Positions 7,139 to 14,039 of a stretch of 39,916 nt of DNA are shown one piece after another. Origin of the DNA: a virus; the IMG/VR virus record IMGVR_UViG_3300042566_000614, positions 1-39,916 of that record; one strand, given 5' to 3'. Position 1 is the first letter of the stretch. Each line of letters begins with the position of its first letter. The notes beneath the pieces are model-generated. The model saw only the letters and a program-made list of their open reading frames with translations. It was not told where the DNA came from and did not search any database. The position numbers and the translations under genes are program-made.

Positions 7139-8521
7139 ATGTTGAAAGAAGTTATCGAAAAACTGGACGGCATCAAAGCCGCCAGCGAAGCCCAGATCGC
7201 TGAAGCCAAGGTTCACGCCGAAGCCAAAGCCGCTGAAGCCAAAGAGGCTGCTGTCTCCGCTATCGAGGCCGTCAAGGTCGAGATGCAAGAGACCGTCAAG
7301 GCTCTGGAAGCCAAAGTGGCTGAGATCGGCGCTCCCGCCATCGTCAAAATCGAAAAGTCTGTTCGCGCCGATGTGAACAAGCACGTCAAAGAGCAACTGC
7401 GCGACATCGCCAACGGCTCCAAGACTCAGTTTGAACGCGAGTTCAAGATGTTCGCTGACGAGTCCGAGTACAACGCCTACATGGCTGAATCCTCGGCCTT
7501 GACTGCTGGCGGTGACGGCAAGGGTGGTCGTACCGCCTACGATCCGACCTTTGTCGCTCTGCGTCTGGCCAACCCGCTGCGCGGCATCTCTCGCGTCGTT
7601 ACCACTGAAGGCTCCAGCTATCAGTTCCGCGTGAAGACCGGCAACGCTGGTGCTCAGTGGGGCTACCCGGTGCAGAACAACGGCACCCCCACGACCGAAG
7701 ACACTTCGATCTGGCAGGTGGTGCTTAAGGACGTGAACGCCCAGTTCCCGATCCGTACCGCCGCGCTGGACGACATCGACGGTCTGGAAGCCAACGTGGT
7801 TGACGACATGCTGATGGAGTTTGCCCAAGTCGAAGCCCAGTCCATGATCGCCAACAACGACCAGACCGGCAGCGGCACCACCGTGTCCACTGGCGGCGCA
7901 GACGGCCTGCGTGGTCTGGACCAGTACGGCGGCGCAAACGCTACCTACACTGGCGGCACCGTGTCCACCGCAGCTTTCGGCTCCAGCGGCACCGGCTCCA
8001 GTTCTGGTCTGCACTCGCTGGCCACCTACGACCAGTTGACCACCAACGCCAACACGGTGGGCGCCAACAACATCTCGTACAAAGACGTTGTGAACCTCAT
8101 CTACAGCCTGCCGCAGCAGTACTGGACTGCCGACGCCAAGTTCATGATCAGCCCGATTCTGCTGCAAGCGATTCGCGGTCTGACCGATGACCAGAAGCGT
8201 CCTGTCTATATCGACGGTCTGGCCCGCAACGACGGTATCGTCGGCCAACTGCTGGGCTTCGATGTGGTCGTCAACAAGTACATGGATACACCTTCGCAGC
8301 TGGCAACCGGCGCCGCTGGCACCGTTAGCAAGTACCCCATGTTCTTCGCTGACTGGAGCCGCTTCCACACCATCGTTGACCGCCTGAACATGATCATGCG
8401 TCGTTATGATCAGACCCAGCCCGGTTACATCACCTTCTACGGTGAGAAGCGTCTGGCCACTTCCGTTCGTGACCCGAACGCTGGTGTGCGTTATCGCTCG
8501 ACTGGTACGGCTGCGGCCTAA
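7139..8521 (+). CDS. Major capsid protein 1, with scaffold-like N-terminus
   Basis: 460 residues, HK97 fold. Residues 1 to about 105 are alanine/glutamate/lysine-rich heptads typical of the delta (scaffold) domain removed by the prohead protease. The remainder carries recognisable capsid stretches: 'SSYQFRVKTG', 'DTSIWQ', 'VVDDMLMEFAQVEAQSMI', and the C-terminal 'QTQPGYITFYGEKRLA'. The ATG at 7139 has AAGGAAA seven bases upstream; the longer open frame back to 6983 overlaps the protease in another frame and is rejected. A strong terminator follows (8529-8552), which would keep this transcript abundant relative to the genes beyond it. A shorter paralogue follows immediately. Confidence 0.93.
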   Translation: MLKEVIEKLDGIKAASEAQIAEAKVHAEAKAAEAKEAAVSAIEAVKVEMQETVKALEAKVAEIGAPAIVKIEKSVRADVNKHVKEQLRDIANGSKTQFEREFKMFADESEYNAYMAESSALTAGGDGKGGRTAYDPTFVALRLANPLRGISRVVTTEGSSYQFRVKTGNAGAQWGYPVQNNGTPTTEDTSIWQVVLKDVNAQFPIRTAALDDIDGLEANVVDDMLMEFAQVEAQSMIANNDQTGSGTTVSTGGADGLRGLDQYGGANATYTGGTVSTAAFGSSGTGSSSGLHSLATYDQLTTNANTVGANNISYKDVVNLIYSLPQQYWTADAKFMISPILLQAIRGLTDDQKRPVYIDGLARNDGIVGQLLGFDVVVNKYMDTPSQLATGAAGTVSKYPMFFADWSRFHTIVDRLNMIMRRYDQTQPGYITFYGEKRLATSVRDPNAGVRYRSTGTAAA

Positions 8522-8571: not shown

Positions 8572-9588
8572 ATGAAAATCAACGAACTTATCCTCAACGG
8601 CGTGAAGACGGCTCTGACCGAGGGCAAAGCAACCATTGACCTTAAAGAGCAGTCGAACATCACCGGCAGCGGCTCTGGCGTTGGCGGTCGAGTCCTCTTT
8701 GACGATGCTTTCGCTGCTGCGCGATACATCAACCCTTTCCGCCAAGGCTCTCGCCAGATCGTGCTCACGGACTCGGACGCCCAGTTCGTGGCCAAGACCG
8801 GCAATGCGGCCAACGCTACCAACCCTTGGGGCTACACGGTGAGCCCCAACAGCGGTTCCCCGAATATCGACACTTCGATCTGGCAACTGCCGGTTCGTGT
8901 TGTCTCCGCACAAATCCCCCTGCGCACTGCCGTGCTGTCCGACGTGAACGCGCTGGACACTGCCATCGTCGATGACCTCATGGCCGAGTTCAGCCAGCTT
9001 GAGGCCGCATCCATGGCCCTGAACGACGATCAGGCCGGGTCCACCACGGTGGCCACGGGCGCCACCTCCGGCCTGCGCGGCTTGGCCACCTATGCGGGTG
9101 GCACCAGCGCCGCATTCGGCACCAGCGGCACGGGTCTGACCAACGGTATCCACACCATCAAGACCGTGGCCAAAGCAGGCGCTACCATCGCCTACGACGA
9201 CATCGTGAACGTGGTCGGCGCACTGCCCGCCCAGTACTGGGCAATGCCGGGTACGGCGTGGCACATTCACCCCGACATGATCACGGCCCTGCGTGCCCTG
9301 AAAGTGCCCACGACCGGCATCCCCTTCTTCCTTGAAGTCGGTGACGAGGACGGCGGTGCAGTGGCCTTCCTGTTCGGCTTCCCAGTGGTCCCCAACCCGT
9401 ACCTCGACATCAATGTGGCGCCGATGTACTTGGCCAACTGGCCCCGATTCATGACTATTGGGGACTTCCCGGAGATCAAGCTGCAACGCATGGAGCAGAC
9501 CCAGCCAGGCTTCATCAACCTGTACGGCGAGAAGCGCGTGGTGTCCACCGTGCGTGACGTGTTTGCAGGCATCAGGTTCACCGTCTAA
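8572..9588 (+). CDS. Second HK97-fold capsid protein, no scaffold domain
   Basis: 338 residues, clearly paralogous to the protein at 7139-8521: both share a WGY segment, 'DTSIWQ', an 'RTA-LxD' patch, 'VDD-M-EF-Q-EA-SM', 'GLRGL', and the C-terminal 'QTQPG' to 'YGEKR'. It lacks the long coiled N-terminal domain; only about 35 residues precede the first strand-like segment. It is separated from gene 1 by a terminator, and its ribosome binding site is weak (AGAGA), so it is likely made in smaller amounts. It may form the pentameric vertices, decorate the shell or replace gene 1 in some positions; that is inference. Reading frame intact. Confidence 0.88.
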   Translation: MKINELILNGVKTALTEGKATIDLKEQSNITGSGSGVGGRVLFDDAFAAARYINPFRQGSRQIVLTDSDAQFVAKTGNAANATNPWGYTVSPNSGSPNIDTSIWQLPVRVVSAQIPLRTAVLSDVNALDTAIVDDLMAEFSQLEAASMALNDDQAGSTTVATGATSGLRGLATYAGGTSAAFGTSGTGLTNGIHTIKTVAKAGATIAYDDIVNVVGALPAQYWAMPGTAWHIHPDMITALRALKVPTTGIPFFLEVGDEDGGAVAFLFGFPVVPNPYLDINVAPMYLANWPRFMTIGDFPEIKLQRMEQTQPGFINLYGEKRVVSTVRDVFAGIRFTV

Positions 9589-10256: not shown

Positions 10257-10895
10257 ATGAACGTGTACTGGATACGGTTGCCGCAACACACAAACGTACA
10301 TGCGCAAGGGTATGTTGGTATAACGCACGACTTTATGCAGCGTCTGTCCGCACATAAGTCTTGTGCCAAACAAGGACATGCAAACCCGCTGTACCGGGCA
10401 ATCCGAAAGCATGGCTGGGATACGTTAGTCAAGGAAGTTATCGCCCGAGGTACAGAGGCAGAATGCCGTGTCCTTGAATCACAGTTACGTCCCCGAGAAC
10501 GTATAGGATGGAATGTTCTTCCGGGCGGCACTGACATTTCTGGGTTTAAACTCTTGGGAACAAAGCAATCAGCGCAGCATATTGCCAACCGCAGCGCCGC
10601 ACTCACTGGGCGCGTATCTGGGTTTAAAGGAAAAAAGCATTCCCCAGAAGCCATTGAGAAGTGCCGCAGGGCGCATACGGGAAAGCCGAAAACCGTTATT
10701 GCCAATACAAAAAACGCAATCGCACACCAGCGGCCGATAACAATAAATGGCGTACAGTATGTAAGCCGACAAGAGGCGAGTATCATTACGGGTATCCCGG
10801 TCGGCAGTTTTGCATACCTCTTGGCCGGACGCATTGGCCCACGCAGTAAATACGCATGGGTAAAAACCATCACCGATACGGGAATGGGTAGCTGA
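10257..10895 (+). CDS. GIY-YIG homing endonuclease
   Basis: 212 residues. Free-standing homing endonuclease likely to cut cognate DNA lacking the gene and spread by repair. N-terminal GIY-YIG nuclease: 'VYWI' (3-6) and 'YVGIT' (19-23) replace the GIY and YIG signatures, Arg29 and Glu74 ('LESQL') fit the catalytic positions. Next, a NUMOD3-like basic segment, 'GFKGKKHSPEAIEKCRRAH' (about 121-140), and a C-terminal helix-turn-helix-like NUMOD1 region 'SRQEASIITGIPVGSF'. It interrupts the neck genes and is less GC-rich than its neighbours by eye, suggesting recent arrival. SD GAGGGC precedes the ATG; its stop overlaps a TGATATG junction with the next gene. Confidence 0.88.
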   Translation: MNVYWIRLPQHTNVHAQGYVGITHDFMQRLSAHKSCAKQGHANPLYRAIRKHGWDTLVKEVIARGTEAECRVLESQLRPRERIGWNVLPGGTDISGFKLLGTKQSAQHIANRSAALTGRVSGFKGKKHSPEAIEKCRRAHTGKPKTVIANTKNAIAHQRPITINGVQYVSRQEASIITGIPVGSFAYLLAGRIGPRSKYAWVKTITDTGMGS

Positions 10896-11243: not shown

Positions 11244-11651
11244 ATGGCCACACAGCAAAATCCACGCGATTACGCCACGGCTATCCAAGCCAAGTTGGTC
11301 GAGGTCATGGGCGCGATACCGGTGTATGCGCTCATGAACCGCAATTACGCCACGCAGCCCAAGTTCGTTACGTGGCAACTGCGCAATATCCACCAGCCGG
11401 TTTATACCGGCCCAGTGCAAGCGGTGAAGGGCATCGACCGCCCGACATTCCAGATCAGCCTGTTCGCCCAGAACAGTGCTGATGTGCTGGATATGTCCAA
11501 TACGGTTCTGCAAGCCCTGCATGGCTTTACCGGCATGTACGGCACTTTGTACGTTACTAAGACCGATGTGCAATGGCTTTACCACTCGTATGACGATAAG
11601 TTGGGCCTCCACCAAGTCTTTTTAGACGCTACAATCGACATACCGACATGA
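11244..11651 (+). CDS. Tail terminator / tail completion protein
   Basis: 135 residues. The pattern (short helical N-terminus 'YATAIQAKLVEVMG', then beta strands including 'PTFQISLFAQNSADVLDM', and a conserved helix 'SNTVLQALHGFTG') fits tail terminator proteins, which cap the tail tube and join it to the head. It precedes the tail-tube genes as expected. The ATG at 11244 is two bases after the previous stop, and AAGG lies upstream. A 6-bp hairpin AAGACA-CGC-TGTCTT (11653-11667) follows and may shape transcription into the tail-tube genes. Confidence 0.65.
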   Translation: MATQQNPRDYATAIQAKLVEVMGAIPVYALMNRNYATQPKFVTWQLRNIHQPVYTGPVQAVKGIDRPTFQISLFAQNSADVLDMSNTVLQALHGFTGMYGTLYVTKTDVQWLYHSYDDKLGLHQVFLDATIDIPT

Positions 11652-11689
11652 CAAGACACGCTGTCTTTAACCCGCTATAAGGAACCAAC

Positions 11690-12184
11690 ATGGCACCCCC
11701 AGCAAAAGTTTTACCCGGTTTTTCAGCCGCCCTGTACATGCAGCCTTCGGCCAGCCCCACGGCACTGACCACGGCAGCGTTGTCTACTTACGCCACCGTG
11801 TCGGCACTGGCCATTTCGGCCAACCAACTTAACGTCGAAGCCATCCCGGCTTTCGGTCAAGACGATGCGGTGGCATCGTTCTCCATCGCGGGTTCGCGTC
11901 AGTCGGACAAAATCCCGGCTCAAGCCGCCCCGACCAGCATGACGATTACGGCACCTTGGGACCCCAGCGATGCCAACCTGCTGCTGATCCGCGGTGACGC
12001 CCAATCCGGCACCGTGGACCGCACGTTCATCATCACGGCCACTGACGGCACTGGTACTGTGTATTACGCCTTCAACGCCCGCGTGGGTGAGTTCAAGATT
12101 GACGCACAGCCAGGCGCCGAAGCCAAGGCCGTGTTCACGATCCATCCCCGTGGCAACCAGTACGGCTGGAGCAACACGCCGTAA
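11690..12184 (+). CDS. Tail tube protein 1
   Basis: 164 residues, beta-rich, soluble, no signal peptide. By position (after tail terminator, before chaperones and tape measure) it is a major tail protein that stacks as rings to form the tail tube. It is a clear paralogue of the next gene: residues 54-76 here are identical to 63-85 there, and 'VGEFKIDAQPGAEAK' and 'HPRGNQYGWSNT' are shared. Ribosome binding site AAGGAAC is nearly the same in both, which suggests similar expression. AAGGAACCAAC precedes the ATG. Confidence 0.85.
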   Translation: MAPPAKVLPGFSAALYMQPSASPTALTTAALSTYATVSALAISANQLNVEAIPAFGQDDAVASFSIAGSRQSDKIPAQAAPTSMTITAPWDPSDANLLLIRGDAQSGTVDRTFIITATDGTGTVYYAFNARVGEFKIDAQPGAEAKAVFTIHPRGNQYGWSNTP

Positions 12185-12219
12185 TTGGCGTAATGACAAC
12201 TCAACTTTAAGGAACAATC

Positions 12220-12738
12220 ATGGCCGCACCATCGAAAATCCTACCCGGCTTTGCCGCCTCGCTGTGGATGCAAACCGGCGCCAGCCCGGTTGCCTTCACG
12301 ACCGCCAACCTGTCCGTCTGGACAGGCCAAGTTGCCACCATCGTGGGCACCGCCGCCAACGGCACGGGCGCAGCAGGTACGCAACTTAACGTCGAGGCGG
12401 TTCCCGCTTTCGGCCAAGACGATGCAGTGGCATCGTTTTCGATTGCTGGTTCGCGCCAGTCGGACAAAATCCCGACCCAAGCCGCACCTACCAGCATGAC
12501 CATCACCGCGCCGTGGAACCCCAGCGATGCGGCCCTGTTGCAGATTCGCGCAGACGCCGCAGCCGGGACCGTGGATCGCACTTTCGTGGTGGCCGCTGTC
12601 GATGGCACCACCACGGTGGCCTACGCCTTCAACGGCCGTGTGGGTGAGTTCAAGATTGACGCGCAACCCGGTGCTGAAGCCAAGTGCGTGTTCACCATCC
12701 ACCCCCGTGGCAACCAGTACGGCTGGAGCAACACATGA
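12220..12738 (+). CDS. Tail tube protein 2 (tandem paralogue)
   Basis: 172 residues. Shares most of its sequence with tail tube protein 1 from residue about 55 on, but the N-terminal 54 residues differ and it carries an extra loop (GTAANGTGAAGT, about 43-54). The duplicated DNA includes several exact blocks over 20 bases, for example the one encoding VGEFKIDA. The two may co-assemble, alternate, or one may serve as tail-tip/initiator tube ring. The stop overlaps the next start (ATGA at 12735). Confidence 0.85.
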   Translation: MAAPSKILPGFAASLWMQTGASPVAFTTANLSVWTGQVATIVGTAANGTGAAGTQLNVEAVPAFGQDDAVASFSIAGSRQSDKIPTQAAPTSMTITAPWNPSDAALLQIRADAAAGTVDRTFVVAAVDGTTTVAYAFNGRVGEFKIDAQPGAEAKCVFTIHPRGNQYGWSNT

Positions 12739-12947
12739 ACGTAAAAGACGCAGTAGCGGAGTTGACCTCCACGTACCGCGCCTTGGACGATGTGGCGCGA
12801 AGCCTGCCGGTAGACGCCAACGAGGTCGCCGCAGCACTGGCCGGGGCGGACCCCGATTCGGCCGAAGCGGTGGCCTTACGGGCCTTGGCCAAGTTCAACC
12901 CGGTGATCAAACCGGCCAAGGCCAAACAGGTCGAAGTTAAAGACTGA
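12735..12947 (+). CDS. Small tail-region protein, 70 aa
   Basis: Begins MNVKDAVAELTS and is almost entirely helical and alanine-rich, with a lysine-rich C-terminus ending EVKD. ATGA overlap with tail tube protein 2 decides the start; the open frame upstream is a shadow inside that gene. A strong terminator (12951-12971) follows. No family recognised; by location a tail-assembly accessory protein. Confidence 0.7.
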   Translation: MNVKDAVAELTSTYRALDDVARSLPVDANEVAAALAGADPDSAEAVALRALAKFNPVIKPAKAKQVEVKD

Positions 12948-12950
12948 AAG

Positions 12951-12971
12951 AAGCCCCTTCGGGGGCTTTTT
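12951..12971 (+). terminator. Intrinsic terminator after tail-tube genes
   Basis: AAGCCCC (12951-12957), TTCG loop, GGGGCTT (12962-12968), followed by TTT. Again a UUCG-capped hairpin, placed after a highly expressed virion-protein block, as after the first capsid gene. It would lower expression of the tail chaperones and tape measure relative to the tube proteins. Confidence 0.82.
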
Positions 12972-12985
12972 CACATGGACACGAT

Positions 12986-13225
12986 ATGAGCACTCCGCAT
13001 GAAATAAAATCCGAGAATGACCTGCTGAACTATCTCCGAGACCGCATGATGTCCGGGGACAGCAACTGGTTCAGCTTCCCGGAACAAAGACTCACGGGTA
13101 TTGCGTTGGCCCATGAGATCGCCGCACGACACGCCGACAAGTTCACGCCAGAGCAAGTCGTCGAGTATGTGGTGAAACTCAACAACGCCATTTATCTCAA
13201 CATGATGCGGAGCAACAAGAGATGA
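12986..13225 (+). CDS. Hypothetical protein, 79 aa
   Basis: Begins MSTPHEIKSENDLLNYLRD; predicted mostly helical and soluble, with no recognised motif. It follows a terminator and precedes the tail chaperone, whose start overlaps its stop (ATGA, 13222-13225). The ribosome binding site is weak. It sits where some siphophages have a small tail gene; role unknown. Confidence 0.65.
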   Translation: MSTPHEIKSENDLLNYLRDRMMSGDSNWFSFPEQRLTGIALAHEIAARHADKFTPEQVVEYVVKLNNAIYLNMMRSNKR

Positions 13226-13692
13226 CACGATTTAGCAAAGCGATGGGCGACAAGTACGAAAGCGCAGTAGCCCAGATTCGCACCAAGACATTCACCTACG
13301 GCGGCTTTGACTTTAAAGTCCGCCTGCCTTTATCTGCCGAGGCCGAAGCGATGTACAAACGCATCGCAGAGGTTGACGAAGAAAGTCTTAAGGCCCGCGT
13401 CAGCAAGATGACTGAATCGCTGCGGGCCGATCCACCCGAGGGCGTCGAAGTCACCGACACGGACGTTATTGTCGATGGCCGGTCTACCCGCGAAGTGGCT
13501 ATGTCCATCATGCTGATGGAAAACCGGATCACGGAATACTTCCGTCTGTTGGTCCCGGTTGAAGGCACGTTTGACGACATCACATACGCAGAGATCGAGG
13601 AAGAATTTCCTCTGCCCGTGCAACTGGAGATGCTGGACGCCATCGTCGAAGCCATTCAGCCCGGGTATAAGGACGCCCGAAAAAACTCGTAA
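13222..13692 (+). CDS. Tail assembly chaperone G
   Basis: 156 residues when read without frameshift. Acts with the longer GT form to keep the tape measure soluble and recruit tail tube protein. Recognised by position immediately before the tape-measure block, by size, by charged helical composition, and by the slippery site 4 codons from its end: the codons AAA AAC preceded by A (13680-13686) allow a -1 shift. The last residues are 'GYKDARKNS'. Not similar to lambda gpG by eye; the call is mostly structural/syntenic. Confidence 0.85.
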   Translation: MTRFSKAMGDKYESAVAQIRTKTFTYGGFDFKVRLPLSAEAEAMYKRIAEVDEESLKARVSKMTESLRADPPEGVEVTDTDVIVDGRSTREVAMSIMLMENRITEYFRLLVPVEGTFDDITYAEIEEEFPLPVQLEMLDAIVEAIQPGYKDARKNS

Positions 13693-14039
13693 GGGACGTT
13701 CACCAGCAAGCCCGCGCTTATGTGTGGGCTCATGGTGGATGTCCCGACGACATCCCCACGGTCGATATGCGCAATATCGAGATCATGCTGAGTGATGGGG
13801 CCATCGGGAATAAAGCCATCTTGCTTGCCCTGAGCACCCTGACAACGGGCAACCTCAACTCCAAGTTGAAGCAGGGCCAGACGCCGTTTACAATTCGTAC
13901 AGTGCTCCCGTCAACGCATGAATACATCATTCCGCCACTGACCGACGAAGAACAAGCCGCGCAGACCAATCGCAGCCTCTTGACGTTCATGGCCACGGCC
14001 CCGGGAGCCCCGGCATCATTTACGGAGAAGCTGACATGA
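13222..14039 (+). CDS. Tail chaperone GT, product of -1 frameshift
   Basis: Predicted 272-residue fusion: G through Asn155 (codon 13684-13686), then -1 re-reading from 13686 (Leu-Val-Arg-Asp-Val-His), continuing into the open frame that ends at 14039 with 'ASFTEKLT'. The downstream part has no good independent start: the nearest, GTG at 13722, lies mid-segment in the fused frame and has no ribosome binding site. Two overlapping frames linked by a slippery site before the tape measure is the standard siphophage arrangement. The stop overlaps the start of the following gene (ATGA). Confidence 0.85.
13680..13686 (+). promoter_or_regulatory. Programmed -1 frameshift site, A AAA AAC
   Basis: The heptamer A AAA AAC is in the exact X XXY YYZ phase with the zero frame of the G gene (CGA AAA AAC TCG TAA). 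Slipping one base back gives AAA AAA then CTC, entering the GT frame. The zero-frame stop is 4 bases downstream of the site. A 7-bp hairpin GGATGTC/GACATCC begins about 50 bases downstream and is probably too far to stimulate; AGCCC/GGGCT (nearer) is weaker. Confidence 0.88.

Follow-up and report, generated by a model that had tools for sequence, protein, structure and literature searches.

The tail tubes of phages are mostly described as one protein repeated, and one of the closest described systems for the locus treated here is the siphophage tube of lambda, whose protein, gpV, is encoded by one gene. Here, we consider a 39,916-base virus record (IMG/VR IMGVR_UViG_3300042566_000614; G+C 56.6%), hereafter called the window, in which two tandem genes, A and B, encode proteins that resemble gpV in predicted fold (VIA Z 11.3–11.9) and in their position between tail terminator and tape measure. 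Unlike gpV, A and B (164 and 172 aa) barely exceed the tube domain and are without lambda's C-terminal Ig domain. In related phages, two predicted inner blocks of A and B change in step, and from these sequences and structural models we consider it probable that the two proteins are major subunits of one siphophage tail, derived from an old gpV-type duplication, with a channel and a stacking surface in common.

Pairs of major tail protein genes have been described before. They are reported for Gordonia cluster DJ, where all 56 sequenced members carry them, and for clusters AM, AU, AW, BI, CC, and EL (PMC12859696, PMC11080557), and two major tail proteins are also mentioned for sepunaviruses (PMC13152194). 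As in cluster DJ, the tail block holds a pair of related major tail genes, A and B, both of full length. However, the copies of the DJ phage FortCran are 43% identical, have one gene between them, and include one thought to be horizontally acquired, whereas A and B are 77% identical and separated by 35 nt rather than by a gene, with inner parts evolving in step. One tube made of two tube-protein forms is known from SPP1, where gp17.1 and gp17.1* occur at 3:1 (PMC8718954, PMC7666168); these come from one gene with a frameshift-added domain, whereas A and B are two complete open reading frames (ORFs) of the same domain plan, each with its own start and ribosome site, and not a frameshift-made second form. 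Tube paralogs of the same fold class share one ring in the Hcp2-Hcp3 heterohexamer of the Bacteroides type VI secretion system (PDB 9vne, PMC13323088), although this is a secretion system rather than a phage. Finally, within the phage collection, A and B match a single record, Methylophilaceae phage P19250A (KX815270), which has a similar gene order but one tube gene (65.0% to A, 57.6% to B). No report of coordinated evolution of tail-tube paralogs was found in the literature searched, which left most subscription papers outside its scope and included PMC9022992, PMC11445458, PMC8718954, PMC7666168, PMC12859696, PMC10504331, PMC11080557, PMC10652937, PMC13152194, PMC9004378, and PMC13323088. 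Doubled major tail genes are thus already published, and it is their coordinated inner evolution that seems new.

That A and B are tail-tube proteins was part of the original prediction, made from the letters of the window, and is supported by both family and fold. PHROG_158 (major tail protein) is matched by A (E 8e-5) and B (E 9.7e-6); in Pfam, A falls below the cut-off (14.5 of 27 bits) and B has no match. The AlphaFold2 (AF2) models (pLDDT 80.5 for A and 77.6 for B) show the β-sandwich, helix, and long b2-b3 loop of the lambda-type tube, with the loop modelled at low confidence, and this tube is the best structural match of both, at VIA Z 11.3–11.8 for A against the lambda and YDC107 tubes and 11.4–11.9 for B against lambda gpV. 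The gene order, in which a tail-terminator-like gene precedes the pair and the tape measure follows, is the same in the relatives listed. A and B are therefore tail-tube proteins with a predicted gpV-type fold.

Their location at 11690–12738 was likewise given correctly, and they are tandem paralogs, with 126 of 163 aligned residues identical and a BLASTP E of 1.5e-90, far beyond chance. A residues 54–76 equal B residues 63–85 at every letter, each gene has the predicted AAGGAAC site 4 nt 5′ of its ATG, and the shared blocks claimed at the DNA level are real, the longest exact one being 32 nt at the 3′ ends. The N-terminal 54 residues had been said to differ; this part has indeed diverged and B carries a 9-column insertion in it, but 29 of the 53 aligned residues preceding the identical segment of A are still the same in B, and the two N-termini are not unrelated. 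Third codon positions are only 55% identical, which argues that the duplication is old.

Three scans of IMG/VR, with the best 80 matches of each kept, gave 189 distinct tube regions including the window and P19250A, a sample whose counts are not population frequencies. Ninety-nine of these are flank-complete with two tube genes, 73 have one, 17 are open, and none has three. From 96 two-copy loci, 85 were kept after dropping any that were at least 95% identical to a kept locus in both genes. In this set, protein identity between A and B is 0.734 within a genome versus 0.688 between genomes, a level reached by 0 of 500 permutations (relatedness ignored), and the excess is highest in A residues 59–91 and 133–149, hereafter the blocks. 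For example, over residues 61–75, 76–90, and 136–150, A is 0.94, 0.95, and 0.90 identical to its own B, while the identities across phages are 0.84, 0.83, and 0.78 among As and 0.86, 0.87, and 0.83 among Bs. The share of foreign As that come nearer to a given A than the B of its own genome (a tie does not score as nearer) is below 10% in 73 of 85 genomes for residues 59–91 and in 75 of 85 for residues 133–149, compared with 0, 4, and 20 of 85 for residues 1–58, 92–132, and 150–163, respectively. Even rare states of A can recur in its own B, including H136 (locus L044), T136 (L145, L033), V141 (L080, L081), S142 (L170, L177, L222), and N142 (L069); at residue 136, rare states are unmatched in L152, L078, and L212.

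The same pattern emerges when changes are counted along a tree. By parsimony, on a tree made from the remaining columns and two neighbouring genes, 138 changes in the blocks coincide out of 253 in A and 223 in B, or 62% of those possible; elsewhere, the figures are 17%, 23%, and 22%. Columns 134, 85, and 142 take 7, 4, and 4 steps in A, the same in B, and the same as a pair. Homologous columns score 0.58 on average versus 0.17 in a control that sets A columns against non-homologous B columns (95th percentile of the control, 0.57). Comparison of related genomes (89 pairs, not independent) showed A and B changing together within the blocks 54 times with a match and 16 times without one, with 120 changes in A only and 64 in B only; outside the blocks, the counts are 29, 88, 495, and 460, respectively. 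Within the blocks, residues 85, 87, 89, 134, and 136 match between A and B (87 being little variable), and residues 86, 88, 135, and 137 vary little, with no excess match. This alternation would fit a lumen-facing side, with residues 84 and 133, which also match, breaking strict alternation.

In major tail proteins, the lumen is lined by strands b2, b3, b5.2, and b6.1, and in most systems the greater part of the contacts between rings comes from loop b2-b3. The outer sheet consists of b1, b4, b5.1, and b6.2, and the helix also lies on that side (PMC8718954). Placed on the A model, the blocks would correspond to loop b2-b3 plus b3 and to b5.2-turn-b6.1. Since these would be the inter-ring loop and lumen strands by the published topology, rings of A and B may well stack around one channel. 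In the mechanism that we propose, a tail-tube gene of the lambda gpV type would have been duplicated long ago to give A and B, rings of which would stack on one another around a common channel; the common lining and stacking surface would then have to stay alike, giving in-step change in the two blocks, and the outer faces (N-terminus, b1, helix, b4, b5.1, and B's insertion) would be free to differ. Each ring might be pure A or pure B, the two kinds alternating or lying in separate zones, or A and B might be mixed within a ring; mixed rings, one of the arrangements raised in the original prediction, are favoured by this in-step change as a possible form. It is conceivable, if more doubtful than not, that throughout a large aquatic phage group the tube is an obligate two-component polymer of alternating or mixed A/B rings, whose lining and stacking surfaces co-evolve residue for residue under an outer coat that is free to vary.

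Three kinds of phage are found: those that have only A, those that have only a B-like tube, and those that have the two together. In a gene tree of 283 tube genes distinct in DNA (midpoint root), one clade (support 1.0) holds all 100 second copies plus the gene of L032, a locus that begins just before B, and the other holds 102 first copies and 80 singles; A and B are thus separate, old orthologous lineages, as judged from this tree. Decay of one copy in relatives had been named as counter-evidence; B is absent from the 73 flank-complete one-copy regions, yet across 84 one-copy loci the 65 gaps long enough for a search held no trace of it, the other 19 being 30 nt or shorter. Recombination between A and B was considered as the origin of the close one-copy relatives and rejected, the C-termini of L203 and L142 being A-like in a comparison of C-termini from 14 loci. 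When a divergent B-like tube, that of L240, served as the starting point of a fourth scan, 80 of 160 loci were retained (L241–L320), all 80 with a single tube gene and 74 of them flank-complete. The 59 distinct B-like single-tube proteins (with L240) all have B's insertion; of six columns diagnostic of A or B, four (16, 37 at 66%, 41, and 125) show the residue usual in B, column 30 shows that of A, and column 40 shows neither. Residue 16 is Y in A and W in B. The inner blocks of these proteins are very different from those of both A and B. Adding them to the midpoint-rooted tree breaks up the B clade, with 5 of 101 Bs placed next to the A clade and none inside the clade of A and the singles. 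A scan of bacterial and archaeal genome contigs found 6 loci, all in metagenome-assembled genomes; the L240 phage sequence lies in a contig assigned to such a genome of Candidatus Nitrosotalea, probably through a binning error.

Repeated short gene conversion between the tandem genes could also keep the inner blocks alike, and recombination had been one of the two forces proposed for the maintenance of the pair. The matching of some rare states by the own B would fit such an exchange, and whole-gene exact tracts are longer than when the codons of B are reshuffled (17.4 vs 15.1 nt, p 0.0007), with the longest tract reached by fewer than 1% of reshufflings in 5 of 85 genomes, including the window. 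The window's 32-nt tract, which falls outside both blocks, was reached by 0 of 200 reshufflings, and when set against A-B pairs taken between genomes (longest, 38) it stands at the 99.9th percentile; a brief and recent conversion may have left it. Within the blocks, unusually long tracts occur in 3 and 5 of the 85 genomes, which points to some conversion there, and at one recent co-change (residue 87, L072/L048) 6 of 7 and 5 of 6 flanking codons are identical. Synonymous identity as a whole likewise rises from 0.404 between genomes to 0.452 within them (0 of 500 permutations), chiefly outside the blocks. However, synonymous codon identity inside the blocks is what each genome's codon usage predicts (0.427 vs 0.416 expected; 85 genomes, p 0.58), and the longest tracts there are in no overall excess (12.3 vs 11.0 nt, p 0.23, and 11.2 vs 10.5 nt, p 0.97); the synonymous excess lies outside the blocks (0.467 vs 0.394 expected). 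Codons flanking matched rare states are only 0.445 identical (n=281). Similarly, for the 12 recent co-changes listed (not independent; residues 139 and 77 account for three each, in part from related genomes), the codons of A and B differ in at least one genome in 11 cases and in both in 4, at a mean local synonymous identity of 0.50. Short conversion tracts therefore probably occur in a few genomes, the window included, but as a general cause conversion is disfavoured: orthologs group by gene rather than by genome, and in most genomes the matching blocks seem not to be accounted for in this way. We regard conversion as a quite unlikely source of the in-step pattern.

Co-evolution of the inner parts through direct contact between A and B is favoured over dependence on a shared third partner, since the correlation of inner A with inner B (Mantel r 0.76, 39 genomes) exceeds that of either with five other genes (at most 0.52), including the terminator (0.51 for A, 0.52 for B) and the tape measure (0.34, 0.30); homologs with equal site preferences may nevertheless look alike. 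The same figures bear on the idea of two alternative tails, in which each virion would be built of A or B alone on the same tape measure and tip, yielding surface variants. Relatives do encode single-type tubes alone, and shared partners would likewise keep the inner surfaces similar; yet inner A and inner B follow each other more closely than either follows the tape measure or terminator, and pure tails would require only self-compatible loops. Such alternative tails are, in our judgement, very improbable.

In extracellular contractile injection systems, tube/initiator pairs include a second tube paralog that is restricted to the spike-proximal ring. By analogy, one paralog could form only a specialised zone, such as the first ring on the tip or the last under the terminator, with the other as the bulk protein. 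Both proteins would still need a common stacking surface and lumen in that case, and the inner strands do correlate with the tail terminator (partial correlation 0.43 for A and 0.38 for B, 75 genomes). A specialised end ring, also raised in the original prediction, is nonetheless less favoured. B's Shine-Dalgarno site is the stronger one (median −7.1 vs −5.7 kcal/mol for A, n=85; other tail genes −5.4, n=216), and codon adaptation is equal (0.589 for A and 0.579 for B, against 0.490 for the tape measure; n=36). Moreover, some phages do with A or a B-like tube as their sole tube protein, and across 27 genomes the inner parts are uncorrelated with Dit. A specialised zone is thus rather unlikely. 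A shared-partner test as a pointer to one particular partner was set aside as not specific, the terminator being highest, the capsid control also positive, and Dit null for the inner parts.

Maintenance of the pair by selection, the other force proposed, is borne out by the sequences. Values of dN/dS are 0.053 (A) and 0.043 (B) in the blocks and 0.080 and 0.094 outside them (non-independent pairs), no tube ORF among the first 235 sequences lies beyond 155–185 aa, and a single B of 85 (L128) is frameshifted near its end, with the displaced frame still holding a block that matches its own A. Both A and B are therefore under purifying selection.

Several points, besides the traces of conversion given above, weigh against co-assembly in one tail as the explanation. 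The blocks were picked only after a scan of the gene, and of the 164 rare states (at most 12%) that A shows in them only 50 match the own B, compared with 32 of 626 elsewhere. As homologs, A and B may share preferences at individual sites, which could exaggerate the match, and old conversions with faded synonymous traces may underlie it. The partner tests are unspecific, as the partial correlation of the strands with capsid protein C1 (0.35, 46 genomes) comes close to that with the terminator; the loop correlates little with partner genes, and it is outer A, rather than the inner parts, that correlates with Dit (0.27). The placement of lumen and loop relies on monomer models with a low-confidence loop, and there are phages with A-type tubes only or B-like tubes only.

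Table 1. Coordinates of the tail-tube pair and of associated features in the window.
Feature	Position	Strand	Remarks
Tail-tube paralog A, 164 aa	11690..12184	+	lambda gpV-type fold predicted; PHROG_158, AF2, VIA
Tail-tube paralog B, 172 aa	12220..12738	+	same predicted fold as A; 9-residue insertion near N-terminus
Ribosome binding site AAGGAAC of A	11679..11685	+	sequence; duplex energy −6.2
Ribosome binding site AAGGAAC of B	12209..12215	+	sequence; duplex energy −6.1
In-step block, A residues 59–91	11864..11962	+	predicted ring-ring loop and strand b3; structure by inference
In-step block, B residues 68–100	12421..12519	+	counterpart of A 59–91
Second in-step block, A residues 133–149	12086..12136	+	predicted lumen strands b5.2-turn-b6.1; structure by inference
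Second in-step block, B residues 142–158	12643..12693	+	counterpart of A 133–149
32-nt exact block, 3′ end of A	12146..12177	+	repeated at 12703–12734 in 3′ end of B; possible conversion tract
70-aa gene	12735..12947	+	ATG overlaps stop of B; no clear family (PHROG_233 E 0.028)
GC-rich hairpin and T run	12948..12971	+	likely intrinsic terminator after 70-aa gene
Tail-terminator-like gene, directly 5′ of A	11244..11651	+	PHROG_347 E 2.4e-4 (weak match)
Tape measure protein, 804 aa	14517..16931	+	PHROG_24 E 5e-84, PF06791
Two HK97-type capsid proteins	7139–8521 and 8572–9588		PF05065 in both

The surroundings of the pair (Table 1) modify two further claims. A terminator had been said to follow A and B; a likely one exists, its 30-nt stretch folding at −15.6 kcal/mol (z −3.2), but it follows the 70-aa gene rather than the pair itself, and a pattern scan for terminators did not include this hairpin in its list. 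A relative of the 70-aa gene stands after the single tube gene in many one-copy loci. The doubling of the capsid protein, which had been mentioned together with that of the tube, is also real, as the two proteins are 41% identical over 369 columns, with the first longer at its N-terminus. However, P19250A, with its single tube gene, has both capsid-type genes, the second 61% identical to that of the window, and the capsid pair is therefore not tied to the tube pair. A hairpin (−19.2 kcal/mol) lies between the two capsid genes. P19250A also provides the best match in the phage collection for the window's portal (66%).

Among the head-tail connector genes, a homing endonuclease is found at 10257–10895 (PHROG_314 E 2.7e-18; GIY-YIG PHROG_5123 E 4.5e-9). 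Farther downstream, a heptamer, AAAAAAC, lies at 13680–13686 near the end of an ORF (13222–13692), after which another frame (13722–14039) follows; the arrangement presumably resembles the G/GT-style −1 frameshift of the lambda tail chaperone, and neither frame matches any PHROG. As for the tape measure, its median length is 795 aa (n=65) in two-copy regions vs 598 aa (n=49) in one-copy regions, a difference confounded by phylogeny, and the idea that copy number sets tail length was dropped on account of single-copy L203 (796 aa) and B-like singles (up to 819 aa).

For doubled tail genes of actinophages, the question of "overlapping or divergent functions" has been raised (PMC12859696), and in-step evolution makes it testable. 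In the present sample, 99 flank-complete regions keep two paralogs where one protein would be the usual description, and pairs of A and B occur in many uncultured water phages. Their predicted inner parts change together far more than the outer faces, which provides an argument, drawn purely from sequence, that both proteins belong to one tail, and the protein would accordingly split into a common part for channel and stacking and an outer part specific to each paralog.
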